Origin: Mycobacterium sp. ITM-2016-00316
GTDB lineage: Bacteria > Actinomycetota > Actinomycetes > Mycobacteriales > Mycobacteriaceae
Assembly: GCF_002968335.2 (NCBI RefSeq)
Contig: NZ_CP134398.1
Span: 1,240,001-1,304,000, forward strand
Length of the DNA: 64,000 nt
Direction of reading: 5' to 3'
In this document: positions 46,378-61,814 of the stretch, piece after piece
Position numbering within the stretch: the stretch's first letter is position 1
Layout of the letters: every line of letters starts with the position of its first letter
Notes under the pieces: generated by a model
What the model saw: only the letters and a program-made list of their open reading frames with translations
Told to the model about the DNA's origin: nothing
Databases searched by the model: none
Translations under genes and position numbers: made by a program

Positions 46378-47175
46378 TCAGCCACCCAACGCCCGCTGAT
46401 AACGGCGCATCCCGGAGATCCAGCGGTCGTAATCTGCGCCCTTGCCGCGGTACATGTCGAGTACCGACGCGTGCGGTAGCACCAGGAAGCGGCCTTCGCG
46501 GATGCCGTCCAGGGTCGCCGACGCCACGTCCTCGGCGCTCAGCACGTCACCGGCGGTGGTGATGGATGCGGCCGCGACCCGCGCGGTGGCATCGGCGGAG
46601 TCGGTGATGGCGTCCAACAGTGGGGTGGCCACCCCCATCGGGCACACGCACGTCACGCCGATACCGTTGTCGCCGTGTGTGATCGACAGCCATTCGGCGA
46701 ACCCGACCGCGGCGTGCTTGGACACCGCGTAGCCGGCGGCCCCGACCTGGGTGAGTAGACCGGCCGCCGAGGCGACGCTCACGAAGTGGCCACTGCCGCG
46801 GGCGATCCAGTCCGGCAGCAGCGCATCGGCGGCCCGAATGTGTGCGCGTAGGTTCACCTCCAATACCCGGTCCCAGTCGCCATCGGACCCCAACCCGGAA
46901 GCGCCGATGACACCCGCGTTGGCCACGTAGATGTCGACAGGGCCGAACCCCTCCCGTGCGGCGTCGAGCAGGGTGGCGATACCCGCGACGGAGGCGGCGT
47001 CCGCGCCGACACCTGCCGCGCGCTCGCCGATCCCGGCAGCGGTCGCGTCGGCGGCGTCGGCATCGATGTCCCCGGCGACCACCGAGGCCCCGGCGTCAGC
47101 GAATTGCTGCGCCAGGGCGCGACCGATTCCGGAACCCGCCCCGGTGATGACCACGACCTTGCCTTCGATCTGCAT
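46378..47175 (-). CDS. SDR-family oxidoreductase (last gene of leftward catabolic run)
   Basis: 265 residues. [19 protein letters not shown] cofactor loop, [10 protein letters not shown] after strand two (Asp, favouring NAD), VANAGV, catalytic Ser in FVSVASAAG and YAVSKHAA (YxxxK). A C-terminal extension [22 protein letters not shown] is typical of a mycobacterial SDR group acting on hydroxyacyl or alcohol substrates. It begins 9 bp after the acyl-CoA synthetase and closes a six-gene leftward run with GntR and SMP-30-like genes. Confidence 0.87.
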
Positions 47176-47184
47176 GGGACGTGT

Positions 47185-48714
47185 CTACCGCATCGATCCC
47201 CGTCGCTTCGCTCGCCCCGCCACCAGTTCGCGCAACTCCCGCTTGAGCACCTTGCCGTAACTGTTCTTCGGCAATTCGTCCACGTAGACGTAGCGTTTCG
47301 GCCGCTTGAACCGGGCGATCCGCTCGAGCAGATGGGCATCGAGGGCATCCTCGGCAGCCGTGCCCACGATGAACGCCACCACCACCTCGCCCCACTCCTC
47401 ATCGAGTGCACCGACGACACAGGCCTCGATGACTCCGGGGTGCTCGATGAGCACCTCTTCCACCTCGCGCGGGTAGATATTGCTGCCGCCGCTGATCACC
47501 ACGTCCTTGCTGCGGTCGCGCAGGGTGAGGTATCCGCGCGCGTCGAACGATCCCATGTCCCCGGTGTGCAGCCAGCCGCCGACCAGGGTGGCCGCCGTGG
47601 CCGCCGGGTTGTTCCAGTAGCCCGACATGACGACGTCGCCACGACAGGCGATCTCGCCGATCTCGTCGACGGCGGCCGGGTTGCCGTCGGCGTCGAGTAC
47701 CGCGACTTCGACACCCGAGCGCGGGTAGCCGACCGAGCCGAGCACCGCGTCATCGGCATCCGGGTGATCCTGCTTACGCAACCCGGTGATGGTCATCGGG
47801 GCCTCGCCCTGGCCGTAGAGCTGGACGAAGATCGGGCCGAACGCCGCCATCGCCTTCTTGAGACTGTCCACGTACATCGGGCCGCCACCGTAGACGACGG
47901 TCGTGAGGTTCGCCGGGCGTGGCCGGCCGGTGGCGACCAGCCGCTGCACCATCGTGGGCGCCAGAAAGCAACTGGCGCCGGGGTGATGGTCACAGAGGTC
48001 GAGGAACTCGTCGGGTTCGAAGCCGGACGATGCCGGAATGACCTGCCGGGCACCACGCAGGATGTACGGCGCGATGTAGAGACCAGAGCCGTGCGACATC
48101 GGTGCGCCGTGCACCAAGCTGGAATTCTCGTCCGGCGAGTCGAAGTCGGCCAGATGCGACACCGTCATCGCCATCAGGTTGCGGTGCGAGAGCATCGCGC
48201 CCTTGGACCTGCCGGTGGTACCGCTGGTGTAGAACAGCCAGGCCAGGGCGCCGGGATCGGTGTTGGCCGGGACCGCGGGGTCGAATCCCAGGCGGGCGGC
48301 GTAGGCGGGGGAGTCGATGTCCTCGACCGGAACGCCGGTGACCCCCGCGAGCGCGGCGGCGATCTTCGGTGACGCGAACACCACCGCGGCGCCGGAATCA
48401 TCGAGGATCTGCGCCATTTCCAGCGGGTGCAGTTTGAAGTTGATCGGGACCACGGCGCAGCCGGCGGCCCACACGGCGAACATCAGCTCGATGATCTCGG
48501 GCCGGTTCTCGCTGGCGATGGCGATTCGGGCGCCGGTATCGAGGCCGCGCGGGGCGACCGCAGCGACAGGGGAATGGCCTGTCACCGACGTGGCCAGCCG
48601 CAGCGCGCGGTCCCGGAGTTCGGCGAAGGTGTGCAACTGTTCAGTACCGCGGTACACCGCGCCGCGCTCCCCGAAGCGCGCCGCGGCCTGGTCGAGTACC
48701 GCAAACAGATTCAC
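47185..48714 (-). CDS. Acyl-CoA synthetase (AMP-forming) 1
   Basis: 509 residues. Activates a carboxylic acid with ATP and CoA. A3-type motif LFYTSGTTGRSKGAML, then YGQGEAPMTITG, GWLHTGDMG, RSKDVVISGGSNIYPREVE and the adenylation lysine in NSYGKVLKREL. GTG 48714 (VNLFAVLDQAAARFG) overlaps the stop of the preceding SDR and is preferred to the longer frame. The C-terminal residues AGRAKRRGSMR are encoded by a copy of the GAGCGAAGCGACGGGGA element (47197-47213), so its tail was altered by that repeat. Confidence 0.9.
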   Translation of the reverse strand: MNLFAVLDQAAARFGERGAVYRGTEQLHTFAELRDRALRLATSVTGHSPVAAVAPRGLDTGARIAIASENRPEIIELMFAVWAAGCAVVPINFKLHPLEMAQILDDSGAAVVFASPKIAAALAGVTGVPVEDIDSPAYAARLGFDPAVPANTDPGALAWLFYTSGTTGRSKGAMLSHRNLMAMTVSHLADFDSPDENSSLVHGAPMSHGSGLYIAPYILRGARQVIPASSGFEPDEFLDLCDHHPGASCFLAPTMVQRLVATGRPRPANLTTVVYGGGPMYVDSLKKAMAAFGPIFVQLYGQGEAPMTITGLRKQDHPDADDAVLGSVGYPRSGVEVAVLDADGNPAAVDEIGEIACRGDVVMSGYWNNPAATAATLVGGWLHTGDMGSFDARGYLTLRDRSKDVVISGGSNIYPREVEEVLIEHPGVIEACVVGALDEEWGEVVVAFIVGTAAEDALDAHLLERIARFKRPKRYVYVDELPKNSYGKVLKRELRELVAGRAKRRGSMR

Positions 48715-49485
48715 CTGGCAACCCACTCGGAGGTAAGCGCGAAGTCCGACAGGTACTTCGTCGAGCTCCAGCCGCCGTCGACGACGATGGTCTGGCCGTT
48801 GATGAAAGCGCCTCCGGGAGAACACAGGAACGCCACCGTGCTGGCGATATCGTCGACCGTGCCGAGGCGGGTGTGCGGTGTCATCTCGGTGTTGATCTTG
48901 CGGAAGCGCTCGTCCTCCAACCGGGTGGCGACCATCGGCGTCAGGGTGACTCCGGGCGCCACCGCGTTGCAGCGGATGCCTTCGGCGCCGTACTGACAGG
49001 CGATGTGGCCGGTCAGCGCGGTCAGTCCGCCCTTGGCCGCGGAATAGGCGCCGCCACGCATCCCACCGACCACCGCGAATGTCGATGTCACGTTGATGAT
49101 CGCCGAGCCCGGCCCCATGTGCGGAAGCACATCGCGGGCCAACCGGAACGGTGCCCGCAGCATCAGGCCCAGAAAGTAGTCCAGCGACTCGTCATCGGTC
49201 TCGTGCAGCGGTTTCGGACTGCCCACGCCGGCGTTGTTGACCAGGAAATCAACATGACCCCAACGGGACACCGCGGCCTCGACGATCTGCGCCGGTGCCT
49301 CGTCGGCGGTGAGGTCCACGGCCAGCGTCGCGATCCGGTCCGGATCGCCGACCGCGGTCTTCGAGTTCGGCCAGCCGGTCCCGGTCCCGGCCCGCGCCCA
49401 GCACCGCCATGCCTGCCTCGGCAAGTTTGACGGCGCAGCCGAAGCCGATCCCGCTGCTGGCTCCGGTCACGATCGCTACCTGCAT
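48711..49485 (-). pseudogene. SDR-family oxidoreductase, frameshifted
   Basis: Two frames together make one SDR. The start frame gives MQVAIVTGASSGIGFGCAVKLAEAGMAVLGAGRDRDRLAELE; a second frame then gives TAVGDPDRIATLAVDLT...VDFLVNNAGVG...INVTSTFA...YSAAKGGLTAL...FINGQTIVVDGGW. The switch is at about 49356-49362 (GAAGACC on the coding strand), where one base too many is present. All SDR motifs (GxxxGIG, NNAG, Ser, YxxxK) remain. Either a recent inactivation or a sequencing error; joined product about 257 residues. In the middle of the leftward run, between two acyl-CoA synthetases. Confidence 0.85.
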
Positions 49486-49486
49486 A

Positions 49487-50986
49487 TCAGTGGAGCCCTT
49501 TCGTCAGCGTCGCTCGGATCTGGTGTTTGAGGACTTTCCCGGCGTCGTTCTTGGGCAGTGCATCCCAGATGGCCACCTGCTCGGGGGCCTTGAACGTGGC
49601 CAGGCCGTGCGCGCTCAGCAGATCCCGCAGATCCTGAACCCCGGGCGTGCTCTCTGCCGCGGGAATGATCACCGCGCAGGCCCGCTCACCGGTGCGGGAG
49701 TCCGGAATCCCCACGACGGCGATCTCGGCGATACCGGGATGCCCGATCAGGATGTCCTCGACTTCCTTCGGGGAAATGTTCTCGCCGTTGCGGATGATGA
49801 TGTCCTTGGCGCGTCCGGTCACCACCAGGTGGCCGTCCTCGGTGAGGTGGCCGAGATCGCCGGTGCGGAAGTAGCCTTCGTCATCAAAGGCCTCCGAGGC
49901 GTCCTCCTCGTGCAGGTAGCCCGTGAGCATCTGGGGTCCGCGAACCCTGATCTCGCCGTCGACGACCCTGATGTCGGCGACCCCGGGGTGGCCGTCGGTG
50001 TCCGCCGCGCGCTCCGCGTCCTCCGGCGAGCCGACGGTGGACACCGGGACCTCGGTGGAGCCGTACACCCGGGTGACGATCGCCTTGTCGAAATACCCGG
50101 TGGCCTTGCGGATGAGCGAGGGCGGCACCGACGCGCCTCCACAGACGAACACTTTGAGATCGGGCAACCGGCTGCCGGCGCGTTCGGCCGCATCGAGCAG
50201 CCCGACCAGAAACGGTGTGGCGCCGGCCGTGTGGGTGCAGCGGTGGGTGCGCATCAGGGTCACGGCCTCGTCGGGATCCCACTTCTCCATGAGGACGGCG
50301 ACCGATCCGAGCAGCAGCGGACACTCGAAGGCGTAGATCGAACCGCCGATATGGGCGATGGGGGAGGGCACCAGGAAGGCGTCACCCTCGTCAATGCGCC
50401 AGTGCTCACCGAGCTGGCGTATCAGGGCATGGAGCGAAACATGGCTGTGCAGAACCCCCTTGGGTCGCCCGGTGGTGCCGGAGGTGTACATGATCATCCG
50501 CACCGCGTCGGAGTCCAGGTCCACGGGATCGGCGGGCGGTGCGGCGAGAAGCTCCGGCAGCGGTGTCTGCCCCGGATGTTCCCCGCGGACCACGACGACC
50601 TCCGGTGGCGAGGACACGGTGGTCGCCACCCGCGACACCATGGCGGCATAGTCGAATCCTCGGAACTGCCCGGGAATGAAGATCATTCGGACGTCGGCGT
50701 CGGTGAGGATGAACTGCAGCTCGCGGTCGCGCAGCGACGGCAGGATCGGGTTGACCACCATGCCCGCCATGGTCGCGGCCAGATAGACGATCGCGGCCTC
50801 GTGCCAATTGGGCAGCATGAAGGACACCACGCTGCCGGTGGGCATCCGTCGCGCCATCTCGGTGGCCAGAGCCCCGGCCTGCCGGTGCAACGCGGCGACC
50901 GTCAGGTCGACGTCGCCGTCGACGATGAGGACCCGGTCCGGAGTGTCCTGCGCCGCAACGCGAAGCGCGTCGGCGAGTGTGCTCAC
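49487..50986 (-). CDS. Acyl-CoA synthetase (AMP-forming) 2
   Basis: 499 residues. MIMYTSGTTGRPKGVLHSH phosphate loop, IAHIGGSIYAF (substrate-pocket segment), VYGSTEVPV, YFRTGDLGHL, GRAKDIIIRNGENISPKEVE and NDAGKVLKHQ with the catalytic Lys. The pocket lacks any motif that would name the acid; the cyclohexanecarboxylate/benzoate-like CoA ligase group is a possible relative. GTG 50986 overlaps the GntR stop, so the two are coupled. Its stop lies one base before the frameshifted SDR start. Confidence 0.9.
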   Translation of the reverse strand: MSTLADALRVAAQDTPDRVLIVDGDVDLTVAALHRQAGALATEMARRMPTGSVVSFMLPNWHEAAIVYLAATMAGMVVNPILPSLRDRELQFILTDADVRMIFIPGQFRGFDYAAMVSRVATTVSSPPEVVVVRGEHPGQTPLPELLAAPPADPVDLDSDAVRMIMYTSGTTGRPKGVLHSHVSLHALIRQLGEHWRIDEGDAFLVPSPIAHIGGSIYAFECPLLLGSVAVLMEKWDPDEAVTLMRTHRCTHTAGATPFLVGLLDAAERAGSRLPDLKVFVCGGASVPPSLIRKATGYFDKAIVTRVYGSTEVPVSTVGSPEDAERAADTDGHPGVADIRVVDGEIRVRGPQMLTGYLHEEDASEAFDDEGYFRTGDLGHLTEDGHLVVTGRAKDIIIRNGENISPKEVEDILIGHPGIAEIAVVGIPDSRTGERACAVIIPAAESTPGVQDLRDLLSAHGLATFKAPEQVAIWDALPKNDAGKVLKHQIRATLTKGLH

Positions 50987-51726
50987 GGCCGGCCCTTGAC
51001 GCGGCGCATCGTCATCGAATGGCGGTACCGGGCCGCCGGGTGGGTGTTCACGGTGACCTGAGCGACCTCACCATCGGAGGTCGTGTAGCTGCGCTGCATC
51101 TGCAGGGCGGGGGCACCCGTCTCGATGCACAGCAGGTCGGCCAGTTCGGCCGAAAGCGCGATCGCGGTGATCTCCTGGTGCACCTCGGTGATGCTGACAC
51201 CGTAGAGATCCTCGATCAGCGGGAAGATCGGTCCCGAATGACGTTGCAGCATCCGGCCGACGGCGGCGAAAGCCCGATTGATGTAGTACTCGGTGCGGCA
51301 GATCGGAGTGTTGGTCGCGGCATCCCGCCGGTATCCCCGCACGGCCAGCCATTGCTCGCCGAGCCCCAAGCCGGTGCGGTCGGCCAGCTCGGCGTCGATG
51401 GTGACCATCGCATGGGAGTCGATCTCGAACTGTGCGCCCGCCGCGAACGCCAGCAGGTCATCGATCGACATCACGTCCTGGGCATAGGAACTCGACGACG
51501 GACGCGGTACGACCAGGGTGCCGGTCCGCGGACGCGAGGACACCAGGTTGTCGTCGCGCAGCCGGCGCAGCGCCTCGCGCACGGTGTACCGGCTGACCGC
51601 GAAGCGATCGCACAGTTCGTGCTCGGTGGGCAGCTGGGAGCCGACGGGGTAGACCCCGTCCACGATCTCCTTGCGCAGCGTCCGCGCCACCTGCAGATAG
51701 CGGTGTTCTGTCGCTTCAGTGGTCAT
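50983..51726 (-). CDS. GntR-family regulator with UTRA ligand domain
   Basis: 247 residues. The winged helix is at the N-terminus: YLQVARTLRKEIVDGVYPVGSQLPTEHELCDRFAVSRYTVREALRRLRDDNLVSSRPRTGTLVV (HutC subgroup). The rest is a UTRA effector domain (EQWLAVRGYRRDAATNTPICRTEYYIN...IALSAELADLL...ALQMQRSYTTSDGEVAQVTVNTHPAARYRHSM). It probably represses both arms of the surrounding catabolic cluster and responds to a pathway intermediate such as an acid or CoA ester. A 13-bp copy of its start region lies 71 bp upstream. Confidence 0.9.
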   Translation of the reverse strand: MTTEATEHRYLQVARTLRKEIVDGVYPVGSQLPTEHELCDRFAVSRYTVREALRRLRDDNLVSSRPRTGTLVVPRPSSSSYAQDVMSIDDLLAFAAGAQFEIDSHAMVTIDAELADRTGLGLGEQWLAVRGYRRDAATNTPICRTEYYINRAFAAVGRMLQRHSGPIFPLIEDLYGVSITEVHQEITAIALSAELADLLCIETGAPALQMQRSYTTSDGEVAQVTVNTHPAARYRHSMTMRRVKGRP

Positions 51727-51797
51727 AGCTCGGCTCCCGGTCGCTCCGGTCCTCGCTCCGCTGCGATCTTCACTTCGCGCTCGCCTTCAGTGGTCAT
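51723..51797 (-). other. 24-codon upstream frame created by a GC-element insertion
   Basis: ATGACCACTGAAG, the first 13 bases of gntR, is repeated exactly at 51785-51797. The 58 bp between the two copies is rich in GAGCG/GCGAC words. From the upstream ATG an open frame (MTTEGEREVK...PGAEL) runs 24 codons and its TGA overlaps the gntR ATG (ATGA). It may couple translation to gntR or be a by-product of the insertion. Confidence 0.45.
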
Positions 51798-51806
51798 GTT
51801 TCGGCG

Positions 51807-53399
51807 TCACCACTTCCGCAGCGCGTACACGCTTCCCTCGCCGTCGGCCGAAACATACAGCGTGCCATCGGGTCCGGCGGCGATACCGGCGAACGGGCCC
51901 TGCGGTCCGGAGAACGGTGGCATGCCGCGCAGCGGCTTGACGCTCACCCCGGGTGGCGCGCCGACCGGCAGCCCGGCGGCGATGGTGTGGCGGGCTCCGG
52001 TGGCCAACTCGACTGCGATGACCGCCTTGCTGCCGGCGTCCACGATGTAGAGCAGGCCGTCGCGCACCAGGATGCCCTGCGGGGTGATCAGCCCGTCGAC
52101 GACGGTGTCGGTACCTGATGCCGTCACCCGCAGCACCGCGGAGTTCACCGAGACCAGCATGCTGCCATCGGCGTCGGTGGTCACCCCGACCGGGGTGTCC
52201 AGATCGGCGGCCAGCACCTGGATGCCGTTGTCGGTGATGGCGAGCACTCGCCCGGTGCCCTGTTCGGCGACGACCGCGGTGCCGTCGGGCAGCAGGGTTA
52301 CCCCGTAGAGCTGATCCAAACCGTCTGCCAGATAGTCGGTTTCGTTGTCGGCGGGTCGGTAGCGGGCCACCTGCCCGCCGGAGGTGGTGACCACGAACTC
52401 GCCGGGGCCCGCCGGGGTCAGCCCGCGGACGAATCCCGGGTAGCCGGGGCTGAACAACATGCCCACCGTCTGCAGTGCGCCTCCGTCACCCAGACTGTAG
52501 AGATAGGTGCCGTCGGCGATGTAGAGCACGCCGTCGGCGCCGACGGTGATGTCCAGCGGCCAGTTCAGCCCGCCCGGCAGCAGCGCGCGGGTGTCTCCGC
52601 CGCCGAGGATCTCGGTGATGGCGCCGGTGAAGTGAGAGACGAACAGCCGCCCGTCGACGAACGCGCAGTTGTCCAGCCCCGGTGTCAGGGTGGCCAGCAC
52701 GGTCTGGGCGCCGGTGCGCGGATCGATGCGCAGCACCTGACCGCTGGCGACCTGGGTGGAAACGATGCTGCCGTCGGCGTCGAACTTGACCGAATCCGGC
52801 ACCCCGAGGTCGCCGGCGACCACTTCGGCGTCCCCGCCATCGGGGTGCACCCGCCAGATCTGATTGGCGTTCATCACCGGGAAGTACAACAGCCCGTCCG
52901 GTCCAAATTCCATGGCATTGGGGGAGGGTAGGTCGGCCAGGATCAGCCGCGGCTCGCCGCCGTCGAGGTCCATCTCGACCAGGCGGCCGCCGTCGCGGCA
53001 CTCGTTGACGAACAGCCGGCCCTGATGGGTGGTGATGCCGTTGGCCGAGGGCAGATCGTCGCGTAGCACCCGGGTGGTCCCGGACGCATCGCGCGCGCTG
53101 ACCCGGCCGTCCATCACCTCGGTGGCGAAGAGGCTGCCGTCGGCTCCGAAGGCCAGATCGTCGGGGGCGATGATGTCGCCGCCCTTGGCGCTGATCGTCT
53201 CGATCTCGCCGGTGGTCACGTCCAGCGCGCTGATCTGGCTGCCGGTCACCTGCGCGATGTAGAGCCGGCCGTCGGGGCCGGTGCGCAGGCCGTTGGCGCC
53301 GAACAGCCGGCTGGGCTGGGTGAGGCGGGTGAGGGTCCAGCCGGTGGCGGCTTCCGGTGACGACGCGGCCGGGTACCGGCCGGCCTGCGGGGTGCTCAT
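51807..53399 (-). CDS. SMP-30/gluconolactonase-like beta-propeller protein
   Basis: 530 residues with about ten repeats of the pattern GPDGxLYIAxxxxxxIxxxDxxTG (for example LRTGPDGRLYIAQVTG, AFGADGSLFATEVMDG, EFGPDGLLYFPVMNANQIW, TVGADGVLYIADG, AAGPDGTLYVSADGEG). This is NHL/SMP-30-type propeller sequence, long enough for one large or two six-bladed propellers. No signal peptide. In this cluster a lactonase role after the Baeyer-Villiger step is attractive, but the metal-binding Glu/Asn/Asp set was not verified. First gene of the leftward run; divergent from the rightward SDR. Confidence 0.75.
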   Translation of the reverse strand: MSTPQAGRYPAASSPEAATGWTLTRLTQPSRLFGANGLRTGPDGRLYIAQVTGSQISALDVTTGEIETISAKGGDIIAPDDLAFGADGSLFATEVMDGRVSARDASGTTRVLRDDLPSANGITTHQGRLFVNECRDGGRLVEMDLDGGEPRLILADLPSPNAMEFGPDGLLYFPVMNANQIWRVHPDGGDAEVVAGDLGVPDSVKFDADGSIVSTQVASGQVLRIDPRTGAQTVLATLTPGLDNCAFVDGRLFVSHFTGAITEILGGGDTRALLPGGLNWPLDITVGADGVLYIADGTYLYSLGDGGALQTVGMLFSPGYPGFVRGLTPAGPGEFVVTTSGGQVARYRPADNETDYLADGLDQLYGVTLLPDGTAVVAEQGTGRVLAITDNGIQVLAADLDTPVGVTTDADGSMLVSVNSAVLRVTASGTDTVVDGLITPQGILVRDGLLYIVDAGSKAVIAVELATGARHTIAAGLPVGAPPGVSVKPLRGMPPFSGPQGPFAGIAAGPDGTLYVSADGEGSVYALRKW

Positions 53400-53424
53400 G
53401 GGCTGGACGCTATCAAGCCCCTGC

Positions 53425-53532
53425 TAGTCCAGACAATAGTCCGGCAGTGGCGACGGCCCGCCCTTGACGAGCAGATAAGTGCTGCGGAATAGTGTTCTCC
53501 GTTGTGCAGAGTGACATATGTTGTACGGACAA
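53425..53532. promoter_or_regulatory. Paired candidate GntR sites in the cluster's divergent promoter
   Basis: TTGTACGGACAA (53521-53532) lies 27 bp before the rightward SDR start and has TTGT/ACAA symmetry. TAGTCCAGACAA (53425-53436), read on the minus strand as TTGTCTGGACTA, matches it at 9 of 12 positions and lies close to the leftward start. One site per promoter fits repression by the cluster's GntR. A TTGACG (53464-53469) may be a -35 for the rightward unit. Confidence 0.45.
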
Positions 53533-53558: not shown

Positions 53559-54404
53559 ATGACTGATCTCCTGAGCCTGGATGGCCGCATTGTGGTGGTC
53601 TCCGGCGCCGGTGGTGGTGGAATCGGCACCACCGTGACTCGACTGGCGGCCGAGGCCGGAGCGACGGTGATCGCGGTGAGCCGCTCCAAGGACAATCTCG
53701 ACACCCACGTCACCCCGCTGGCCGACCGCGGCCTGCCGGTGATCCCGGTGGCCGCCGACGCCTCGACCGATGAAGGCATCGAGACGGTGCTGGACGCGAC
53801 GCGCACGGCCGACGGCACGCTCTACGGTCTGGTGAACATCGCCGGCGGTGCCGCACCGGGAACCTGGATGCCGGCCACCCGAGTCTCCCGCTCGGACTGG
53901 CGTGAGCTGTTCACCGCGAACCTGGAGACCATGTTCTTCATGAGCCAGGCGGTGGCCGCCGAGATCCGCGCCGCCGGTCACCCCGGCTCCATCGTGTCGG
54001 TGTCCTCGATCAGCGGGATGAACAGCGCACCGTTCCACATCGCGTACGGCACTGCGAAGGCCGCGATCGTGGCCGCCACCCGAACCTTGGCCGTCGAGCT
54101 GGCCCCCCACGACATCCGTGTCAATGCGGTGGCGCCCGGGGTCACCGAGACCGCGGCATCGGCCACCTACGTCGACGCGGACCCGGACCGCGATCAGCGG
54201 GCCATTGCCATGGGCCGCCGGGGCACCCCCGAGGAACAGGCCGGGGCGATCCTGTTCCTGCTGTCGGATCTTTCTGGCTATGTCACCGGGCAGACGCTGC
54301 TGGTCGACGGTGGACTCAATCTGCGGTGGACGCATCTGGGAGCAGACAACACGTCGTTGTTCTTGAAAGACCAGAACTTCCGCGAAGCGATCAGCCGGAT
54401 CTGA
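53559..54404 (+). CDS. SDR-family oxidoreductase (first gene of rightward run)
   Basis: 281 residues. Cofactor segment VVVSGAGGGGIGTTVTRL, NIAGGAA, Ser in SIVSVSSISGMN, YGTAKAAIVAATRT (YxxxK) and YVTGQTLLVDGGLNL. The C-terminal extension RWTHLGADNTSLFLKDQNFREAIS is unusual in length. GAAGG precedes the ATG by about 8 bp. It probably oxidises an alcohol group produced by, or fed into, the oxygenases that follow. Confidence 0.87.
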   Translation: MTDLLSLDGRIVVVSGAGGGGIGTTVTRLAAEAGATVIAVSRSKDNLDTHVTPLADRGLPVIPVAADASTDEGIETVLDATRTADGTLYGLVNIAGGAAPGTWMPATRVSRSDWRELFTANLETMFFMSQAVAAEIRAAGHPGSIVSVSSISGMNSAPFHIAYGTAKAAIVAATRTLAVELAPHDIRVNAVAPGVTETAASATYVDADPDRDQRAIAMGRRGTPEEQAGAILFLLSDLSGYVTGQTLLVDGGLNLRWTHLGADNTSLFLKDQNFREAISRI

Positions 54405-54416
54405 GAGGACAGGCAC

Positions 54417-55829
54417 ATGACCCACACCGAATCCGATCTCGACGCCGCGATCGAGATCGACGCCGAACCCGACGATTCCACGGGTGAGATCGCCGAGGAT
54501 CTGTCGACGGCGATGACCATCCCGGTCGATGCCTATATCTCTCCGGAGTATGCGCGCAACGAACGAGACAGGTTGTGGCGCAAAGTCTGGCAGCAGGTCG
54601 GACGGGTCGAGGAGATCCCCGAGGTGGGTAGCTACCTGACCTACGACATCCTCGACGACTCGATCATCGTGGTGCGCACCGGAGCGGACACTTTTGCCGC
54701 CCACCACAACGTCTGCATGCACCGCGGTCGCAAACTGATCGACAACCCCGAGGGCGCCAAGAACGCGACCGGCCGCGCACGCAAGTCCTTCGTCTGCGGT
54801 TTCCACGGCTGGACCTACGGTCTGGACGGTGCCTGCACCCATATCCGTGAACAGGACGACTGGCAGGGCAAGCTCACCCCGGGCACCACTCATCTGGCCC
54901 CGGTGCAGGTGGACACCTGGGGTGGATGGCTTTTCGTCAACATGGACCCGCACTGCGAGTCCTTGGTCGATTACCTGCACCCGGCCGCGAAGATCCTCGA
55001 CCCGTTCGGCCTGGAGAACATGCGCTACAAATGGCGCAAATGGCTGCACTTCGACTGCAACTGGAAAGTCGCGATGGAGGCCTTCAACGAGACCTACCAC
55101 GTGTTCACCACCCATCCGGAATTCAACAAGTTCGGTGAATTCAAGGGCTGGGCCAAGGCGCAGGGCAAGCACAGCAACATCGGCTACGACGCCCCGAAGG
55201 GGATGGACGAGACCAAGTCCAAGATCCGCCTGGGCACCGGCGATCCGCGTATCTCCACCGCCGAGATGCAGGTCTACACCATGGAAGAGACCAACGCCAC
55301 GACGACCAAGACTCTGGTCAACGCCGCCAAGCGACTCGTGGACGAACTGCCCGAAGGCACCCCGGCCGATCAGGTGCTGCAGCACTGGCTGGCCTCGGCC
55401 CGCCGTGACGACGAGGCCCGAGGCGTGATCTGGCCGACCATTCCGCCCGACATTCTCGGCCAGAGCGGCACCGCGTGGCAGATCTTCCCGAATTTCCAGG
55501 TGGGACAGGGCCTGACCAGTGCTTTGTGCTATTCCGCACGCCCCGACCCGAGCTATGACCCGAACAAGTGCATCTTCGAGGTCGCGGTGTTCGAGCTGTA
55601 TCCCAAGGGCGAAGAGCCCGCGACGGAGTGGGCCTACACCCCCAAGGATTCACCGAACTGGCTGTCGGTGCTACCGCAGGACTTCTCCAATATGGCTGCG
55701 GTGCAACAGGGTATGAAGTCGGCGGGATTCCCCGGCACATTGCCCAATCCATACCGCGAGCGCAGCACCGTGAATCTGCATCTACAGCTGTCCAAGTACA
55801 TGGGCAGCGGCGAACCTCAAGATATTTAG
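54417..55829 (+). CDS. Rieske non-haem iron oxygenase, alpha subunit
   Basis: 470 residues. The Rieske cluster is C100-x-H102 (VCMHRG) and C127-x2-H130 (VCGFHGW). The catalytic iron site NETYHVFTTHPEF gives His228 and His233; at 225, where most family members have the bridging Asp, there is Glu. The C-terminal half has about 40 extra acidic/basic residues typical of single-component-alpha, homotrimeric enzymes. It hydroxylates or demethylates a ring or amine substrate; no beta subunit, ferredoxin or reductase gene is nearby, so electrons must come from elsewhere. Confidence 0.92.
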   Translation: MTHTESDLDAAIEIDAEPDDSTGEIAEDLSTAMTIPVDAYISPEYARNERDRLWRKVWQQVGRVEEIPEVGSYLTYDILDDSIIVVRTGADTFAAHHNVCMHRGRKLIDNPEGAKNATGRARKSFVCGFHGWTYGLDGACTHIREQDDWQGKLTPGTTHLAPVQVDTWGGWLFVNMDPHCESLVDYLHPAAKILDPFGLENMRYKWRKWLHFDCNWKVAMEAFNETYHVFTTHPEFNKFGEFKGWAKAQGKHSNIGYDAPKGMDETKSKIRLGTGDPRISTAEMQVYTMEETNATTTKTLVNAAKRLVDELPEGTPADQVLQHWLASARRDDEARGVIWPTIPPDILGQSGTAWQIFPNFQVGQGLTSALCYSARPDPSYDPNKCIFEVAVFELYPKGEEPATEWAYTPKDSPNWLSVLPQDFSNMAAVQQGMKSAGFPGTLPNPYRERSTVNLHLQLSKYMGSGEPQDI

Positions 55830-55830
55830 C

Positions 55831-55879: not shown

Positions 55880-55899
55880 ACCTCAGCAAGGAGACGATT

Positions 55900-57081
55900 A
55901 TGAAGGTCAATCTCGGTACCGGTGCGCAGAACTCGCAGGACTGGGAACGGGTCATGGCGGGCGATTTCAGCAGCCCGCCCGCGACGCCGGACTACACGTG
56001 TGTGCAAGCCGCGCTGGCATTGGGTGACCTGGCCGAGCCGCTCGGTTACGACGGCATCTGGTTCCCCGAGCATCAGGGCACTCCGTACGGCATGACGCCC
56101 AACCCGATTCAGGCGCTCACCTACTTCGCGGGCCGCACCGAGCGGGTCAGCCTGGGCACCTTCGTCGCCGTCGCGCCGTGGTGGAACCCGGTGCGGCTGG
56201 CCCACCAGATCGCCTACCTCGACATCGTCTCCAATGGCCGCTACAACACCATCGGCATCGGCCGCGGGGTGTCCAAGAGCGAGTTCGACGCCGTCGGTGT
56301 ACCCCGCGAGCAGAGCAGACAACGGTTCAACGAGACGCTGGACATCCTCGAACTGGCATTCTCCGGCGAGCGGTTCTCCTACGACGGTGAGATCTTCAAG
56401 TTCCCGGAGATGTCGCTGCGCCCCGAGCCGCTCAGCAAGGATCTGTTCTCCCGCATCTTCAGCTCGTCTTCGACCGCCGAATCGTTGGAGATCCTGTCCC
56501 GGCGCGGCATGGTGCCGCTGTTCGTCGGCAACAAGCCCATCTGGGATGCCGGCGAGGAGGTCCGCAAGGTCAACACCTTCCGCGCGGAGGAGGGCTTCGA
56601 GCCCTGTCAGCCCAAGAACGTGATGTTCATGTACGTCACGGAGAAGGAGGACGACACCCTCGCCGCACTCACCGAGCAGTGGATCTGGACCGCCAATCGC
56701 GACGTCAACGTCCACTACGGCTTCGCCGACGCGTCGAACTTCAAGGGCGTCAGCGGCTATGAGGCCTACGCGGCCCGCGAGGCGACCGCCACCGCGGTGC
56801 TCGCCTCCTCGGTCACCGGCGACCAGAAGAAGGGCGGCCCGCCCGGGTACCACGCCTCCAACCTGCTCATCGGCACCCCCGAGGTGGTCTTCGAGAAGCT
56901 CAAGGCCGCCCAGGAGGCGTGCTCGTTCTCCGAGGTGACCATCGTCCCGCAGTTCGGCACCATGCCCTACGAGGACGCCTTCGAGAGCACCAAGCTGTTC
57001 GCCAAGGAGGTGCTGCCGGCCGTACACGAACTCGCAGCCCCGCTGCATCCCGCCGCCCTGCCGGAGAACGCCACCGTATGA
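55900..57081 (+). CDS. LLM-class flavin-dependent monooxygenase
   Basis: 393 residues, bacterial luciferase-like TIM barrel. Family segments: GYDGIWFPEHQGTPYGMTPNPIQALTYFAGRTERVSLGTFVAVAPWWNPVRLAHQIAYLDIVSNGRYNTIGIGRGVSKSEF, with the NGR...GxGRG motif. Uses reduced FMN or F420, which the sequence alone does not settle; the FMN type needs a separate reductase. AAGGAGACG is a strong ribosome site before the ATG. Its stop overlaps the next start (ATGA). Likely a ring or side-chain oxygenation step. Confidence 0.88.
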   Translation: MKVNLGTGAQNSQDWERVMAGDFSSPPATPDYTCVQAALALGDLAEPLGYDGIWFPEHQGTPYGMTPNPIQALTYFAGRTERVSLGTFVAVAPWWNPVRLAHQIAYLDIVSNGRYNTIGIGRGVSKSEFDAVGVPREQSRQRFNETLDILELAFSGERFSYDGEIFKFPEMSLRPEPLSKDLFSRIFSSSSTAESLEILSRRGMVPLFVGNKPIWDAGEEVRKVNTFRAEEGFEPCQPKNVMFMYVTEKEDDTLAALTEQWIWTANRDVNVHYGFADASNFKGVSGYEAYAAREATATAVLASSVTGDQKKGGPPGYHASNLLIGTPEVVFEKLKAAQEACSFSEVTIVPQFGTMPYEDAFESTKLFAKEVLPAVHELAAPLHPAALPENATV

Positions 57082-58925
57082 CCGACCAGCAGACCTGCGG
57101 GCCGACCGACACCCCGACCGATATCGACATCCCGGCGATCCGGGAGAAGTACGCCGCCGAGCGGGCGAAGCGGTTGCGCTCCGAGGGCGCCGATCAATAC
57201 CTGGAACTGGAAGGCGATTTCGCCGAATTCTACGAGGTCGACCCGTACACGACGGTCACCGAACGGGACGCCGTCACCGAAGACGTCGACGTGGTGATCC
57301 TCGGCGGTGGCTTCGCCGGGCTGCTGGCCGGGGCCCACCTGAAGAAGGCCGGCGTCGAGGGTATCCGCGTCATCGAGATGGCCGGCGATTTCGGCGGTGT
57401 CTGGTACTGGAACCGTTTCCCGGGCATCCAGTGCGACAACGACGCCTACTGCTACGTCCCGCTGCTCGAGGAACTCGGCTTCATGCCGTCGAAGAAGTTC
57501 GCCGACGGCGCCGAAATCTTCCAGCACTGCCGCAACATCGGCAAGCACTTCGGGTTGTACGACGGCGCGCTGTTCTCGACGCAGGTACGCGATCTGCGCT
57601 GGGAGGATTCCACCCAGCGCTGGCAGATCAGCACCGATCGCGGCGACGATATCCGGGCCCGGTTCGTGGTGATGGCGCAGGGGTCCTACAACCGTCCGAA
57701 ACTGCCCGGAATCCCCGGGATCAAGGACTATGAGGGGCACGTGTTCCATTCCGCCCGCTGGGATTACGACTACACCGGCGGTGACGCCGACGGCGGGTTG
57801 GGCAAGCTGGCCGACAAACGTGTCGCGCTGGTGGGCACCGGTGCGACCGGCATCCAGCTGGTGCCGCATCTGGGTCGGGACGCCAAGGAGCTCTTCGTGT
57901 TCCAGCGGACACCGTCCTCGGTCGATGCGCGGTCCAATCCGCCCACCGATCCGGAGTGGGCGGCGTCCCTGCAACCGGGCTGGCAGGCGGAGCGCAAGCG
58001 CAACTTCCACAACTGGTCACCGTTCGTCGGCGTGGTGTTCGGTGAACCGGATCTGGTCTGCGACTTCTGGACCGAGCTCGGACGCAACCTGACGGCCCGG
58101 ATCGCGGCCAGCGAGGATCCCGCGTCGGTGACCATCGAACAGATCATGGCGTTCCGGGAGGAAGAGGACTACAAGATCATGGAGCGGCTGCGCCGCCGGG
58201 TCGCCGAGATCGTCGAGGATCCCGAGACTGCCGAGGCGCTGAAGCCGTACTACCGCTTCATGTGCAAGCGGCCGACCTCCAGTGAGCAGTACCTGGCGTC
58301 CTTCAACCGGCCGAATGTGACACTCGTCGACGTGTCGGCCTCCAAGGGCGTGGAACGGCTGACCGCCAACGGCATCGTCGCCGACGGTGTCGAATACGAG
58401 GTCGACTGCGTGATCTTCGCCAGCGGTTTCGAGATCTCCACCGAGATCAGTCGGCGTTTCGCGATCGACAGCATCGTCGGCCGGGATGGGTTGTCGCTCT
58501 TCGACTATTGGCAGAACGACTACAAGACGCTGCACGGGATGACCACCCGCGGGTTCCCGAACCAGTTCTTCATGGGCTTCATCCAGGGCGGCGTGTCGGC
58601 CAACACCACCGCGATGTTCGAGCAGCAGGCCGAGCACATCGCTTACATCATTGCCGAAGCTCAGAACCGCGGCGCCAGGACGGTCGAACCCAGCCAGCAG
58701 GGCCAGGATGCCTGGGTCGCCACGGTTCGCGAACTGTCGATCGACAACTCGGCATTCGAATTATCTTGCACGCCGGGATATTACAACAACGAGGGCCGCG
58801 GTGGCGCGGAGCGCAACGGCTCCTTCCTCGGTGACTTCTACTCGCCGGGTTTCTACGCCTTCGACGACCTGATCGCGCAATGGCGGGCCGCGGGCGACCT
58901 CGACGGACTGGAGCTCACCCCATGA
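57078..58925 (+). CDS. Baeyer-Villiger monooxygenase, type I
   Basis: 615 residues, with the long N-terminal extension of the PAMO/CPDMO branch (KYAAERAKRLRSEGADQYLELEGDFAEFYEVDPYT). FAD fold GGGFAG (76-81), signature GGVWYWNRFPGIQCD (106-120), BVMO fingerprint YEGHVFHSARW (218-228, with Tyr in place of Phe), and NADP fold GTGATG (253-258). Inserts oxygen next to a ketone to give an ester or lactone. ATG 57078 overlaps the LLM stop, which fixes the start. An SMP-30-like protein in the divergent arm could hydrolyse the lactone. Confidence 0.92.
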   Translation: MTDQQTCGPTDTPTDIDIPAIREKYAAERAKRLRSEGADQYLELEGDFAEFYEVDPYTTVTERDAVTEDVDVVILGGGFAGLLAGAHLKKAGVEGIRVIEMAGDFGGVWYWNRFPGIQCDNDAYCYVPLLEELGFMPSKKFADGAEIFQHCRNIGKHFGLYDGALFSTQVRDLRWEDSTQRWQISTDRGDDIRARFVVMAQGSYNRPKLPGIPGIKDYEGHVFHSARWDYDYTGGDADGGLGKLADKRVALVGTGATGIQLVPHLGRDAKELFVFQRTPSSVDARSNPPTDPEWAASLQPGWQAERKRNFHNWSPFVGVVFGEPDLVCDFWTELGRNLTARIAASEDPASVTIEQIMAFREEEDYKIMERLRRRVAEIVEDPETAEALKPYYRFMCKRPTSSEQYLASFNRPNVTLVDVSASKGVERLTANGIVADGVEYEVDCVIFASGFEISTEISRRFAIDSIVGRDGLSLFDYWQNDYKTLHGMTTRGFPNQFFMGFIQGGVSANTTAMFEQQAEHIAYIIAEAQNRGARTVEPSQQGQDAWVATVRELSIDNSAFELSCTPGYYNNEGRGGAERNGSFLGDFYSPGFYAFDDLIAQWRAAGDLDGLELTP

Positions 58926-59755
58926 CGACCGCCACTGAGGCATTGCAGACACGGGCTATCAAGGAGCGCATCGGATCGGAGGTGCGCGCCGACAAAGACA
59001 CCTTGCTGTCAGGAGAATACGCCGGTGAGATCCGGGAGCTGCTGGAGCAGCGGGGAGTGCTGGTCCTCCCGCAGATCGGATTCAGCGATGAGGAGCAGAT
59101 CGCCTTCACCGAGACGCTCGGTACCTTCGCCCCCGAGGCTCGCGGTGAGAAGCTGTACAAGGTGTCGTTGGACACCGAAGTCAACAAGCAGGCGGATTAT
59201 CTGAAGGGGTCGCTGTACTGGCACCTGGACGGCACCATGAACGAGGTGCCGATCCTCGCCTCGCTGCTGCAGAGCGTGGCGCTGGGGAACCCGGATGAAG
59301 GCGACACCGAATTCTGCAACACCTACGCCGCCTATGACGACCTGCCCGATGAGGACAAGGCCGAGATCGCGGATCTGCGGGTGATGCACTCGGCGTGGAA
59401 CACGTTGTTCTACTACAACCCAGAGCCTTCGGTGAAGACCCTCAAGCAGATGATGGCCATCGGTGACCGGGAGCTGCCGTTGGTGTGGACCCACAAATCG
59501 GGTCGCAAGTCGCTGGTGCTGGGGGCGACCGCGCGCCACATCACCGACATCGACTACACCCGGAGTGCGGAACTGCTGGTGCGCCTGCGCGATTGGGCGA
59601 CCCAACCGCAGTTCACCTACCGGCACAAGTGGACCGTCGGGGACCTGGTGATCTGGGACAACACCGGCACCATGCACCGGGCCACACCGTATGATCCCAG
59701 CTCGGGGCGGCTGTTGCAGCGCACCAAGCTCGAGGGCGAGGAACCGTTCGCTTGA
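58922..59755 (+). CDS. TauD/TfdA-family Fe(II)/2-oxoglutarate dioxygenase
   Basis: 277 residues. Iron ligands are His101 and Asp103 (YWHLDGT) and His252 (TGTMHRATPYD); the 2-oxoglutarate arginine is in RLLQRT near 263-267. RGVLVLPQIGFSDEEQIAFTETLGTFAPEARG at the N-terminus is the usual TauD opening. Relatives hydroxylate beside a sulfonate, ether or amine and so release small fragments. ATG 58922 overlaps the preceding stop. In this cluster it may cleave an ether or hydroxylate a side chain. Confidence 0.9.
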   Translation: MTTATEALQTRAIKERIGSEVRADKDTLLSGEYAGEIRELLEQRGVLVLPQIGFSDEEQIAFTETLGTFAPEARGEKLYKVSLDTEVNKQADYLKGSLYWHLDGTMNEVPILASLLQSVALGNPDEGDTEFCNTYAAYDDLPDEDKAEIADLRVMHSAWNTLFYYNPEPSVKTLKQMMAIGDRELPLVWTHKSGRKSLVLGATARHITDIDYTRSAELLVRLRDWATQPQFTYRHKWTVGDLVIWDNTGTMHRATPYDPSSGRLLQRTKLEGEEPFA

Positions 59756-60663
59756 CCAGCCAGCTGCGCTTCGACGACCGCGTCGCCGTCATCACCGGTG
59801 GTGGACGCGGTCTGGGCCGGGAGTACGCGCTGCTGCTGGCATCGCGGGGCGCCAGGATCGTCGTCAATGATCCCGGCGGCAGCCTGACCGGCGACGGGTC
59901 GGATGAGGGCCCGGCCCATGACGTGGCGCGCGAGATCATCGCTGCCGGTGGGCAAGCCGTCGCCTGCACTGAATCGGTCGCCACCCCTGACGGCGGCAAG
60001 GCCATCATCGACGCCGCCATTGCGAACTTCGGGCGCATCGACATCCTCATTCACAATGCGGGTATCGTGCGCCGCGGCTCACTCAAGGAATTGAGCTATC
60101 AGGATTTCGAGTCCGTACTCGATGTGCACCTGCGCGGCGCTTTCCATGTGGTGCGTCCGGCGTTTCCGCTCATGTGTGCCGCCGGCTACGGGCGGATCGT
60201 GCTCACCTCCTCGATCGGCGGTCTGTACGGCAACCACGGTGTCGCGAATTACGCCGCTGCCAAGGCCGGAATCATCGGTCTCACCAACGTGGCCGCACTC
60301 GAAGGCGCCGCCGAGGGCGTGACCTGCAATGCGATCGTCCCGGGCGCGGTCACGAGAATGGCTGAGGGACTGGACACCTCGGCATACCCGCCGATGGGAT
60401 CGGATCTGGTGGCGCCTGCTGTCGGCTGGCTGGCGCATGAATCGTGTTCGGTGAGTGGCGAACTGTTCGTGGCGATCGCCGGCCGGGTCGCCCGCGCGTT
60501 CATAGCGGAGACGCCCGGGGTGTATCAGCCATCTTGGTCCATCGAGGACGTCGCGACCAACATCGATGCCATCCGCGGTGGCACCGCACCGTTGGAGTTC
60601 GCGCCGGTGCCCGACGGACACACCGACCACATCCGCTTCTCATTCGGGATGGCCGCCCAATGA
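59752..60663 (+). CDS. SDR, (3R)-hydroxyacyl-CoA dehydrogenase-like (MFE-2 type)
   Basis: 303 residues. VAVITGGGRGLGREYALLLASRGARIVVNDPGGSLTGDG is the hallmark opening of the MFE-2/HSD17B4-like SDR group, followed by IHNAGIVRRGSL, LTSSIGGLYGNHG and YAAAKAGIIGLT (YxxxK). The length beyond 280 and VAPAVGWLAHE fit the group. It would oxidise a 3-hydroxyacyl-CoA in a beta-oxidation-like step. TTG start overlaps the previous stop (TTGA); no better start is seen. Confidence 0.87.
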   Translation: MTSQLRFDDRVAVITGGGRGLGREYALLLASRGARIVVNDPGGSLTGDGSDEGPAHDVAREIIAAGGQAVACTESVATPDGGKAIIDAAIANFGRIDILIHNAGIVRRGSLKELSYQDFESVLDVHLRGAFHVVRPAFPLMCAAGYGRIVLTSSIGGLYGNHGVANYAAAKAGIIGLTNVAALEGAAEGVTCNAIVPGAVTRMAEGLDTSAYPPMGSDLVAPAVGWLAHESCSVSGELFVAIAGRVARAFIAETPGVYQPSWSIEDVATNIDAIRGGTAPLEFAPVPDGHTDHIRFSFGMAAQ

Positions 60664-61814
60664 CCGAATTCCAGGGGCCGCTCAAAGGGGTGCGGGTCAT
60701 CGACCTCACCGCCATGGTGATGGGGCCGTACTGCACCCAGATCATGGCCGATATGGGCGCCGATGTGATCAAGGTGGAACCGCCGGCCGGCGACAACACC
60801 CGCTACATCTCGGTCGGTCCCGTGGCCGGGTTGAGCGGTGTCTTCATCAACGTGAACCGCGGCAAGCGGGGCGTGATGCTGGACCTGCAGACCGATGCGG
60901 GCAAGGCCGCGTTGCGGTCGTTGATCGAAACCGCCGACGTGTTCATCCACTCGATGCGGGCCAAGGCCATCGCCAAGCTGGGGTTCGCCTATGAGGACGT
61001 CGCCGCGCTGAACCCGTCCATCGTCTACACGAACTGCTACGGGTACGGCAGGCGGGGCCCGGACGCCGACCGCCCCGCCTACGACGACACCATCCAGGCC
61101 GAATGCGGATTGCCTGCGGTGCAAGAACAATTGACCGGTGAGGCCAGCTATGTCGGCACCATCATGGCCGACAAGGTGGCGGGTCTGACGGCCCTGTACG
61201 CCACCACGATGGCGCTGTTCCACCGCGAGCGCACCGGTGAGGGGCAGGAGGTGGAGGTCAGCATGTTCGAGACTATGGCATCGTTCATGTTGGTCGAGCA
61301 TGCCAACGGCGCCATGTTCGACCCCGCGCTCGGCCCGGCCGTGTATCCCCGCGCGGTGGCGCCCAACCGCAAGCCGTACGAGACCAAGGACGGTCAGATC
61401 GCGGCGCTGATCTACAACGACAAGCACTGGCACGCCTTCATCGAGCGGGTGCAGCCCGTCTGGAACAGCGTCGAGTTCGCCACGCTCGAGCAGCGCGCCA
61501 AGCAGATCGACACCGTGTACGGGCTGGTGGCGCAGACGCTCAAGGAACGCACCACCGAAGAGTGGCTGCAACTGTTCCGCGAACTGGAGATCCCGGCCGC
61601 CGCCGTCAACACCCCGGACGCCTTGTTCGACAACGAACATCTCAATGCCGTCGGACTGTTCGAGACCATCCAGACCGCGCACGGCCCGATTCGTCTGCCG
61701 GGCGTGCCGACCTGGTTCTCCCGGACACCCGGCCGCGTGCACGGGCCGGCACCGGAGCTGGGCGCCGACACCGAGAAGGTGATGGCTGAACTTCAGGCGC
61801 TGCCGCGGCATTAG
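60660..61814 (+). CDS. Class III (CaiB/BaiF) CoA-transferase
   Basis: 384 residues. GVRVIDLTAMVMGPYCTQIMADMGADVIKVEPPAGD is the family opening, then NVNRGKRGVMLDL, and YDDTIQAECGL, where the catalytic Asp of this family falls. Moves CoA between carboxylic acids, so it can prime the acid made by the oxygenases without ATP. ATG 60660 overlaps the SDR stop (ATGA); the longer frame is a shadow. Last gene of the seven-gene rightward run. Confidence 0.92.
   Translation: MTEFQGPLKGVRVIDLTAMVMGPYCTQIMADMGADVIKVEPPAGDNTRYISVGPVAGLSGVFINVNRGKRGVMLDLQTDAGKAALRSLIETADVFIHSMRAKAIAKLGFAYEDVAALNPSIVYTNCYGYGRRGPDADRPAYDDTIQAECGLPAVQEQLTGEASYVGTIMADKVAGLTALYATTMALFHRERTGEGQEVEVSMFETMASFMLVEHANGAMFDPALGPAVYPRAVAPNRKPYETKDGQIAALIYNDKHWHAFIERVQPVWNSVEFATLEQRAKQIDTVYGLVAQTLKERTTEEWLQLFRELEIPAAAVNTPDALFDNEHLNAVGLFETIQTAHGPIRLPGVPTWFSRTPGRVHGPAPELGADTEKVMAELQALPRH

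Follow-up and report, generated by a model that had tools for sequence, protein, structure and literature searches.

We describe a cluster of 13 genes at 46378..61814 of a 64,000-nucleotide stretch of DNA (the window) from Mycobacterium sp. ITM-2016-00316, bases 1240001-1304000 of its single-contig 5.99-Mb genome. Among 98 genomes of the same genus, every genome with the Rieske oxygenase gene of this cluster has either a luciferase-like flavin monooxygenase (LLM), as here, or a thiamine diphosphate (ThDP) enzyme, and never both. The two arms of the cluster diverge from an intergenic region with a conserved pair of predicted operator sites, and the pair occurs together with the gene for a GntR regulator. 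We consider it rather probable that the whole cluster forms a single regulon for the catabolism of a cyclic natural compound that yields ketones, and that LLM here makes the C–C cut made by the ThDP enzyme in other species.

Genes were called by codon-position GC, and families were assigned by Pfam and NCBIfam scans. The calls bear out the initial annotation of this DNA, which had reported 13 genes in two divergent arms: one GntR/UTRA regulator, four oxygenases (Rieske, LLM, type I Baeyer-Villiger monooxygenase (BVMO) and TauD/TfdA), four short-chain dehydrogenases (SDRs), two AMP-forming acyl-CoA ligases (ACS), a class III CoA-transferase (CAIB) and an SMP-30/Vgb/ScyE-like propeller (PROP).

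46378..47175, minus strand: SDR1, short-chain dehydrogenase, outside the conserved core (PF00106, 138 bits)
47185..48714, minus strand: ACS1, AMP-forming acyl-CoA ligase, GTG start inferred (PF00501, 230 bits)
48711..49485, minus strand: SDR2, short-chain dehydrogenase, frame broken, N-terminal part in another frame
49487..50986, minus strand: ACS2, acyl-CoA ligase (PF00501, 223 bits)
50983..51726, minus strand: GntR/UTRA (HutC-like) regulator (PF00392 and PF07702)
51807..53399, minus strand: PROP, double beta-propeller, candidate lactonase or ester hydrolase
53559..54404, plus strand: SDR3, short-chain dehydrogenase, core (PF13561, 187 bits)
54417..55829, plus strand: RIES, Rieske oxygenase alpha subunit, core (PF00848 and PF00355)
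55900..57081, plus strand: LLM, luciferase-like flavin monooxygenase (PF00296, 166 bits)
57078..58925, plus strand: BVMO, type I Baeyer-Villiger monooxygenase, core, likely ATG at 57078
58922..59755, plus strand: TauD, Fe(II)/2-oxoglutarate dioxygenase, optional (PF02668, 178 bits), likely ATG at 58922
59752..60663, plus strand: SDR4, short-chain dehydrogenase, core (PF00106, 149 bits)
60660..61814, plus strand: CAIB, class III CoA-transferase (PF02515, 375 bits), likely ATG at 60660

The 98 genomes were searched with cut-offs of E up to 1e-120 for the ThDP enzyme and up to 1e-90 for LLM. The Rieske gene is present in 72 of them (68 of the 90 more complete ones), and these 72 are exactly 47 genomes with the ThDP enzyme plus 25 with LLM, the window genome among the latter; none has neither. 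At the same cut-offs, LLM and the ThDP enzyme are absent from all 26 Rieske-negative genomes. A ThDP orthologue was not found in this strain's genome, where the best match is 29%. Furthermore, the two genes never occur together in 151 overlapping locus rows (44 with LLM, 82 with ThDP, 25 with neither within the stretch). LLM lies between the Rieske and BVMO genes in all 25 stretches that have it, and the ThDP gene is found at several positions. Outside the genus, a ThDP orthologue (76-79%) is present in 7 of 8 genomes tested, and these 7 have a Rieske gene at 65-67%, while the eighth, with no ThDP orthologue, has only a 41% Rieske. None of the 7 has an LLM orthologue, the best matches tested being 32%, and 44% over 150 residues. 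Since, in the genomes tested outside the genus, the ThDP orthologue occurs and an LLM orthologue was not found, the ThDP enzyme is probably the ancestral state.

A Rieske tree was obtained by a quick method, with the LG+G4 model and SH-aLRT support only. It shows six changes of the LLM/ThDP label, of which four are forced by starred branches, and a single LLM clade is rejected (p-AU 3e-101). All four independent contrasts are in the expected direction. In many mycobacterial copies, CAIB is followed by two acyl-CoA dehydrogenase (ACAD) pairs, the ThDP enzyme and an aldehyde dehydrogenase (ALDH), and in others by the last two alone. One contig of a metagenome-assembled genome (MAG), L086, has LLM together with ACAD1-4, and its ALDH gene (74%) directly follows ACAD4 with no ThDP gene between. 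This arrangement argues that LLM replaces the ThDP enzyme itself, and it disfavours a replacement of the aldehyde dehydrogenase instead. The presence of ALDH alone says little, because an unlinked homologue (69-75% identity) occurs in 8 of the 25 LLM genomes, and 8 of the 26 Rieske-negative genomes also have a homologue above cut-off. TauD and ACAD1 show no strict exclusivity of the LLM/ThDP kind. Thus, to judge from gene content, LLM seems to stand in for a ThDP enzyme that is not an oxygenase.

The operator emerged from an alignment of 20 sequences drawn from 69 propeller/SDR3 intergenic regions (68 loci plus the window). Two blocks are conserved. The one upstream of SDR3 is the palindrome TTGTCCGGACAA; the other, which precedes the propeller gene, reads TTGTCTGGACTA on the opposite strand and nearly repeats it. 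In the window they are as follows.

53425..53436, minus strand: operator site 1, TTGTCTGGACTA, the sole exact match to TTGTCNGGACWA in the genome
53521..53532, plus strand: operator site 2, TTGTACGGACAA (family consensus TTGTCCGGACAA), 96 bp from site 1

The only exact operator match in the window genome is thus in this intergenic region. Exactly two sites with at most one mismatch are present in 68 of 68 loci in which the propeller, SDR3 and GntR genes occur together, and the pair is also present in 3 of 3 loci where ThDP and ALDH genes sit between the propeller gene and SDR3. At the same setting, no operator is found in any of 7 distant loci without the GntR gene. A second set of stretches, which overlaps in genomes with the named loci and the 151 rows so that the counts are not independent, gives a similar picture: at least two sites lie within 320 bp in 65 of 65 stretches with a propeller gene, the window included. 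The spacing of the sites is 95-97 bp in 61 of these 65, although the intergenic length varies, and 6 sites lie elsewhere in the 1.25 Mb that these stretches span. The regulator itself scores 63.2 bits on the UTRA domain (cut-off 23.8). From the co-occurrence, we predict that the GntR protein binds the paired operator; it may act as a repressor, and the even spacing would then be consistent with looping.

The pair is kept where the cluster is divided. In Mycolicibacter, and in other genomes arranged in the same way, the genes are distributed over two loci, each with the site pair. The first contains SDR3, the Rieske gene, BVMO, SDR4 and ALDH, with TauD as a further gene in some genomes. In the second, ACS1, SDR2, ACS2, GntR and the propeller gene are on one side, and CAIB, the dehydrogenase pairs and the ThDP gene are on the other. 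The pair is found in 3 of 3 propeller-side stretches and 6 of 6 named SDR3-side loci. Among the stretches of the second set that lack the propeller gene, two sites precede SDR3 in 5 of 7, and the other two contigs begin inside or just before SDR3. The initial annotation had treated both arms as one cluster with a common reaction scheme, and these results, the split loci included, make it probable that they are one regulon under one predicted operator pair. The split loci L163, L164, L165 and L237, compared with L079, L212, L214, L215, L218 and L219, offer a natural experiment on the integrity of the regulon.

Several points weigh against one regulon in which LLM does the work of the ThDP enzyme. 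The number of operator matches with at most two mismatches in the window is that expected by chance (10 found, 9.7 expected), and genome-wide the one-mismatch matches (13 and 14) are fewer than those of a reversed control pattern (32 and 33). The counts at looser settings are not significant, so the operator claim rests on conservation, placement and co-occurrence with GntR. A GTNTANAC-type operator is expected of HutC-type GntR regulators. It was rejected here, being found in 0 of the 69 intergenic sequences, and the other palindrome is conserved instead. The loci without the GntR gene are also the most distant ones, and the missing sites there may reflect ancestry. In this strain, one stretch at 4.21 Mb carries a homologue of each of the four acyl-CoA dehydrogenase subunits (55-76% identity), and there is no operator with at most one mismatch near this set, so that any role of the set in this strain's pathway is conjecture. 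No enzyme of the cluster passes an NCBIfam equivalog cut-off that would name a substrate. SDR2 is broken, as the initial annotation had noted for one of the four SDRs: the open reading frame at 48711-49424 lacks the first 48 or so profile positions, and the N-terminal Rossmann part lies in another frame. The pathway may therefore fail in this strain unless another SDR serves. Relatives keep an open frame across this place in all 128 rows retained by the alignment filter, the rows being drawn from sets that overlap. The break is thus either confined to this sequence or a sequencing error, and does not belong to the system's design. The quick Rieske tree may mix recombined clusters, and starred branches give only four independent LLM/ThDP contrasts (sign-test p = 0.125), so that the strength of the exchange lies in the absence of exceptions. 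Finally, the exclusivity could mean two versions of the cluster for two substrates.

On this last explanation, clusters of the LLM type and of the ThDP type would degrade different but related compounds, and the two genes would be alternatives of substrate, not of mechanism. It would account for the variation of the other optional genes among species (TauD, the ACAD pairs, SDR1 and ACS1) and for BVMO identities to the window of about 67 to 99% that do not follow those of the Rieske protein. However, both types share the Rieske gene, SDR3, SDR4, the propeller, GntR and the operator, the swaps occur between close relatives on the Rieske tree, and neither the ALDH gene of L086, directly after ACAD4, nor the looser patterns of TauD and ACAD1 would be expected of it. 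We regard it as somewhat unlikely. An exchange of LLM and the ThDP enzyme at one step is the simplest account: both would cut the same alpha-oxygenated carbonyl intermediate, the one with O2 and the other without it.

From the gene classes, we propose the following sequence. GntR, on two phased operators, would control both arms and release them on sensing a pathway compound. The Rieske enzyme would hydroxylate the ring, the SDRs would convert alcohols to ketones, and oxygen insertion by the BVMO would yield a lactone or an ester that may then be hydrolysed by the propeller. The next step would be the cut of a C–C bond beside a carbonyl, made in most species by the ThDP enzyme together with the aldehyde dehydrogenase and in this strain by LLM with O2. 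The two ligases and the CoA-transferase would convert the resulting acids to CoA esters, which would enter beta-oxidation-like steps with two acyl-CoA dehydrogenase pairs, here at another locus. A cyclic terpenoid or norisoprenoid is our favoured class of substrate. The initial annotation had drawn up a scheme of oxygenations, hydrolysis and CoA activation; the oxygenation and CoA-activation chemistry stands, while the four oxygenases are not fixed steps, LLM seemingly replacing an enzyme that is not an oxygenase. A more specific proposal, which we make tentatively, is that LLM is a C–C cleaving flavin monooxygenase that has repeatedly displaced the ThDP enzyme in a cyclic isoprenoid pathway, with GntR looping the two operators; one candidate substrate would then be abscisic acid or a related norisoprenoid.

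The profile and structure comparisons assign the enzymes to families. Type I BVMOs are marked by two Rossmann GxGxxG motifs and the fingerprint FxGxxxHxxxW(P/D). The BVMO here has GGGFAG and GTGATG, and its fingerprint, read by eye, is YEGHVFHSARWD, with Y for F; it belongs to the type I family with this substitution, and the strict F-form pattern does not match. It scores 394 bits against PDB 5mq6. The Rieske domains are above the Pfam cut-offs (53.8 and 58.7 bits against 20.3 and 24.9), with CntA/GbcA as the nearest named relatives; the pattern C.H.{14,20}C..H, which is too short for this protein, has no match. LLM passes only the superfamily model PF00296, with 115.4 bits on TIGR03619 (F420-dependent LLM, cut-off 166.9) and 89 bits on bacterial luciferase alpha (cut-off 600), and its nearest solved structures are alkanal monooxygenases of the luciferase family. 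Enzymes of the acetolactate synthase, oxalyl-CoA decarboxylase and 2-hydroxyacyl-CoA lyase kind use ThDP to make or break a bond beside a carbonyl. The relatives' ThDP enzyme resembles these three but falls below the cut-off of all three models (264 bits against 509, 208 against 557 and 160 against 600, respectively). Among the best 25 matches listed from each NCBIfam scan, those of the SDRs and ligases are all below cut-off; the nearest models to ACS2 are medium-chain and cyclohexanecarboxylate ligases, both below theirs. CAIB has 205 bits on the succinate-glutarate CoA-transferase model NF052585 (cut-off 750), and the relatives' acyl-CoA dehydrogenase pairs are pimeloyl-CoA dehydrogenase-like, again below cut-offs. 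Taken together, CAIB and these pairs suggest dicarboxylic CoA esters from ring opening.

The propeller belongs to the ScyD/ScyE family (NF033206, 117.1 bits, cut-off 80) and has no signal peptide evident by eye. It folds as two NHL/SMP-30-like propellers, of which the VIA comparison mainly covered the first, with rows tied among NHL, designed and lactonase propellers. The 50 Foldseek matches listed are mostly receptor and sensor propellers, and the sequence profile mostly matched designed ones. SMP-30-type lactonases are six-bladed, and their catalytic site binds a metal. For the propeller here, a role as a lactonase is a guess.

The BVMO and TauD resemble enzymes of pentalenolactone biosynthesis (PtlE, NF045818, 697 bits; PtlD, NF045815, 76 bits), which would suit a cluster that makes or tailors a terpenoid lactone of that kind. 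However, both scores are below the equivalog cut-offs (1100 and 550), the Pfam scan finds no terpene synthase or P450 among the 13 genes, and TauD is optional, while the acyl-CoA ligases, the CoA-transferase and the relatives' acyl-CoA dehydrogenase pairs fit breakdown. We consider a biosynthetic cluster very improbable.

A cluster-wide homology search, which the initial annotation had proposed as a check, finds the set widespread in the genus and its core in other actinobacterial genera. Of 477 loci with a close BVMO in the scan of named genomes, the best 80 were kept; the queries for BVMO and CAIB began 20 and 8 residues inside the likely start, and that for TauD 14 residues before it. Seventy-nine of the 80 loci carry mycobacterial names. 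The other, L059, is on a contig labelled as an Acidobacteria MAG and has a mycobacterial-type copy of the cluster with the operator; it is probably mis-binned. The nearest named relative in one scan is Mycolicibacterium frederiksbergense LB 501T, 95-99% identical from SDR3 to CAIB. By tblastn and gene maps, SDR2, ACS2, GntR and the propeller gene on one arm, and SDR3, the Rieske gene, BVMO, SDR4 and CAIB on the other, are present in nearly every uncut stretch; where rows end at contig ends (e.g. L038, L045, L068 and L077), a missing gene does not mean absence. SDR1, ACS1, LLM and TauD vary between species, and an SDR1 orthologue (76-93%) was seen in 5 of the 80 named loci, the flank covering only part of that position. 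Thus, the 13 genes are not the natural unit for which they had been taken, since these four vary and relatives add the ThDP enzyme, ALDH and acyl-CoA dehydrogenases. A 13-gene unit unique to this strain is likewise ruled out by the named loci and the Rieske count in the genus.

In a sample of 296 genomes from the class, the Rieske gene is present in 24, of which 16 are from the same genus, 7 have it at 65-67% and 1, a distant relative, at 41%. The core of propeller, SDR3, Rieske, BVMO and SDR4 genes recurs at 59-80% identity in other actinobacterial genera, its conservation extends to other families, and its order is kept in 6 of 7 distant stretches (L121, L122, L123, L125, L126 and L133). In the distant relatives the operon further encodes the ThDP enzyme and, in most cases, an aldehyde dehydrogenase. 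The core is directly followed by the ThDP gene in L121, L123, L125 and L126, and then by ALDH in three of the four; L122 and L133 are at contig ends. The seventh stretch, L124, has no BVMO within its limits, and its ThDP gene lies just outside. Proteins resembling old yellow enzyme, HMG-CoA lyase and ecdysteroid kinase are neighbours in L124 (2554-6780 and 14139-15476).

Similar genes occur on plasmids of Mycobacterium branderi, Rhodococcus sp. USK13 and Sphingobium. The annotated order in USK13 is propeller, SDR, Rieske, NAD(P)/FAD oxidoreductase, SDR, ThDP enzyme, ALDH and TauD, and the Rhodococcus plasmid relatives adjoin ABC transporter genes. Plasmid pBSY17_1 of Sphingobium sp. RAC03 has Rieske, ThDP and propeller relatives (L238 and L239), the ThDP copy having as neighbours an NAD(P)/FAD oxidoreductase, another Rieske gene, an IclR regulator and an AMP-binding protein. 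The relatives on this sphingomonad plasmid suggest transfer between phyla. A second Rieske relative (52-54%) was found in two genomes, at L128 (13763-14503 and 9205-10629) and L129 (10347-11735), and one of the two also has, close by, a GntR protein with 53% identity to that of this cluster. There is no operator with at most one mismatch in either stretch, and these loci are a possible sister system.

The wide occurrence in the genus, and the lack of a transporter among the 13 genes in the Pfam scan, would be expected if the cluster modified a cell-envelope or sterol-derived lipid of the bacterium itself instead of serving growth on an outside compound. Against this, the cluster is absent from 22 of the 90 more complete genomes, it is under local GntR control, and its relatives are carried by large plasmids in both Rhodococcus and Sphingobium, with the transporter genes next to them in the former. 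A role in the bacterium's own lipids is therefore improbable, and we prefer catabolism of a cyclic natural compound.

In the layout of the cluster, the packing by 4-bp overlaps that had been described is seen at six junctions (ACS1/SDR2, ACS2/GntR, LLM/BVMO, BVMO/TauD, TauD/SDR4 and SDR4/CAIB). The other junctions are gapped: SDR1/ACS1 by 9 bp, GntR/propeller by 80 bp, SDR3/Rieske by 12 bp, Rieske/LLM by 70 bp, and SDR2/ACS2 by 1 bp if SDR2 starts at 49485. No Rieske reductase or ferredoxin is among the 13 genes. Just beyond the cluster, window 44459-45424 encodes a serine beta-lactamase-like protein (PF13354, 49 bits; 29 bits on the class A beta-lactamase equivalog, cut-off 200), and a 141-aa open frame at 45840-46265, with no Pfam or NCBIfam match, adjoins the cluster. 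On the other side are a DUF222/HNH protein (62007-63365) and a C-terminal part of HtpG (63511-63987). The HtpG neighbour is common to a subset of species and marks one chromosomal place of the cluster.

The predicted pathway is conserved in about three-quarters of the sampled species of the genus, and no substrate for it was met in the open-licence literature searched. A specific operator and its predicted regulator are now offered for testing, together with two enzymes that genome content marks as apparently interchangeable. Should the exchange prove functional, the known reaction type of the ThDP enzyme would reveal the role of the uncharacterised LLM, and vice versa, and the exchange would be a repeated non-orthologous displacement between O2-dependent and O2-independent C–C cleavage.

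The initial annotation had recognised no known pathway with this gene set, and we met none in the open-licence full-text literature, with subscription journals mostly outside it; a known named pathway was thus set aside. The closest named relatives of the BVMO are PtlE (pentalenolactone/neopentalenolactone D synthase) and the enzyme of PDB 5mq6, which we take to be polycyclic ketone monooxygenase. Both act on bulky polycyclic ketones. In contrast to PtlE, the BVMO here scores below the cut-off and is located in a CoA-linked cluster with Rieske and CoA genes. The mymA operon of M. tuberculosis likewise has a BVMO, an SDR and an acyl-CoA ligase in one mycobacterial operon; to our knowledge, it has no Rieske, LLM, ThDP enzyme or propeller. 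The actinobacterial 2-hydroxyacyl-CoA lyase (HCL) cluster is GntR-linked and has a CoA ligase, a ThDP enzyme and an aldehyde dehydrogenase, while no Rieske, BVMO or propeller genes are mentioned in its description as consulted (PMC7176365). The relatives' ThDP enzyme also differs from HCL, being below the cut-off of the lyase model, as given above. In the breakdown of abscisic acid by Rhodococcus sp. P1Y, a BVMO step to an acetic-acid side chain has been suggested, on the way to a trimethylcyclohexenone acid (PMC9599779). That substrate is a trimethylcyclohexenone, and pathway genes are not described in the text as consulted (PMC9599779). By analogy, abscisic acid is one candidate substrate, with no gene linking its pathway to the cluster.

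Cyclohexane-1,2-dione hydrolase is not named among the 43 PDB sequences listed as matches to the relatives' ThDP enzyme at 1e-30. A flavin monooxygenase route leads from 2-hydroxycyclohexanone to 6-oxohexanoate; the flavin enzyme of the cyclohexanone route is a type I BVMO, whereas here it is luciferase-like. Cyclohexane-1,2-dione hydrolase is described as a ThDP enzyme that cleaves a C–C bond of a cyclic 1,2-dione (PMC12247030). The hydrolase and flavin monooxygenase routes thus provide a precedent for two chemistries that make one cut, as we suggest for the ThDP enzyme and LLM.

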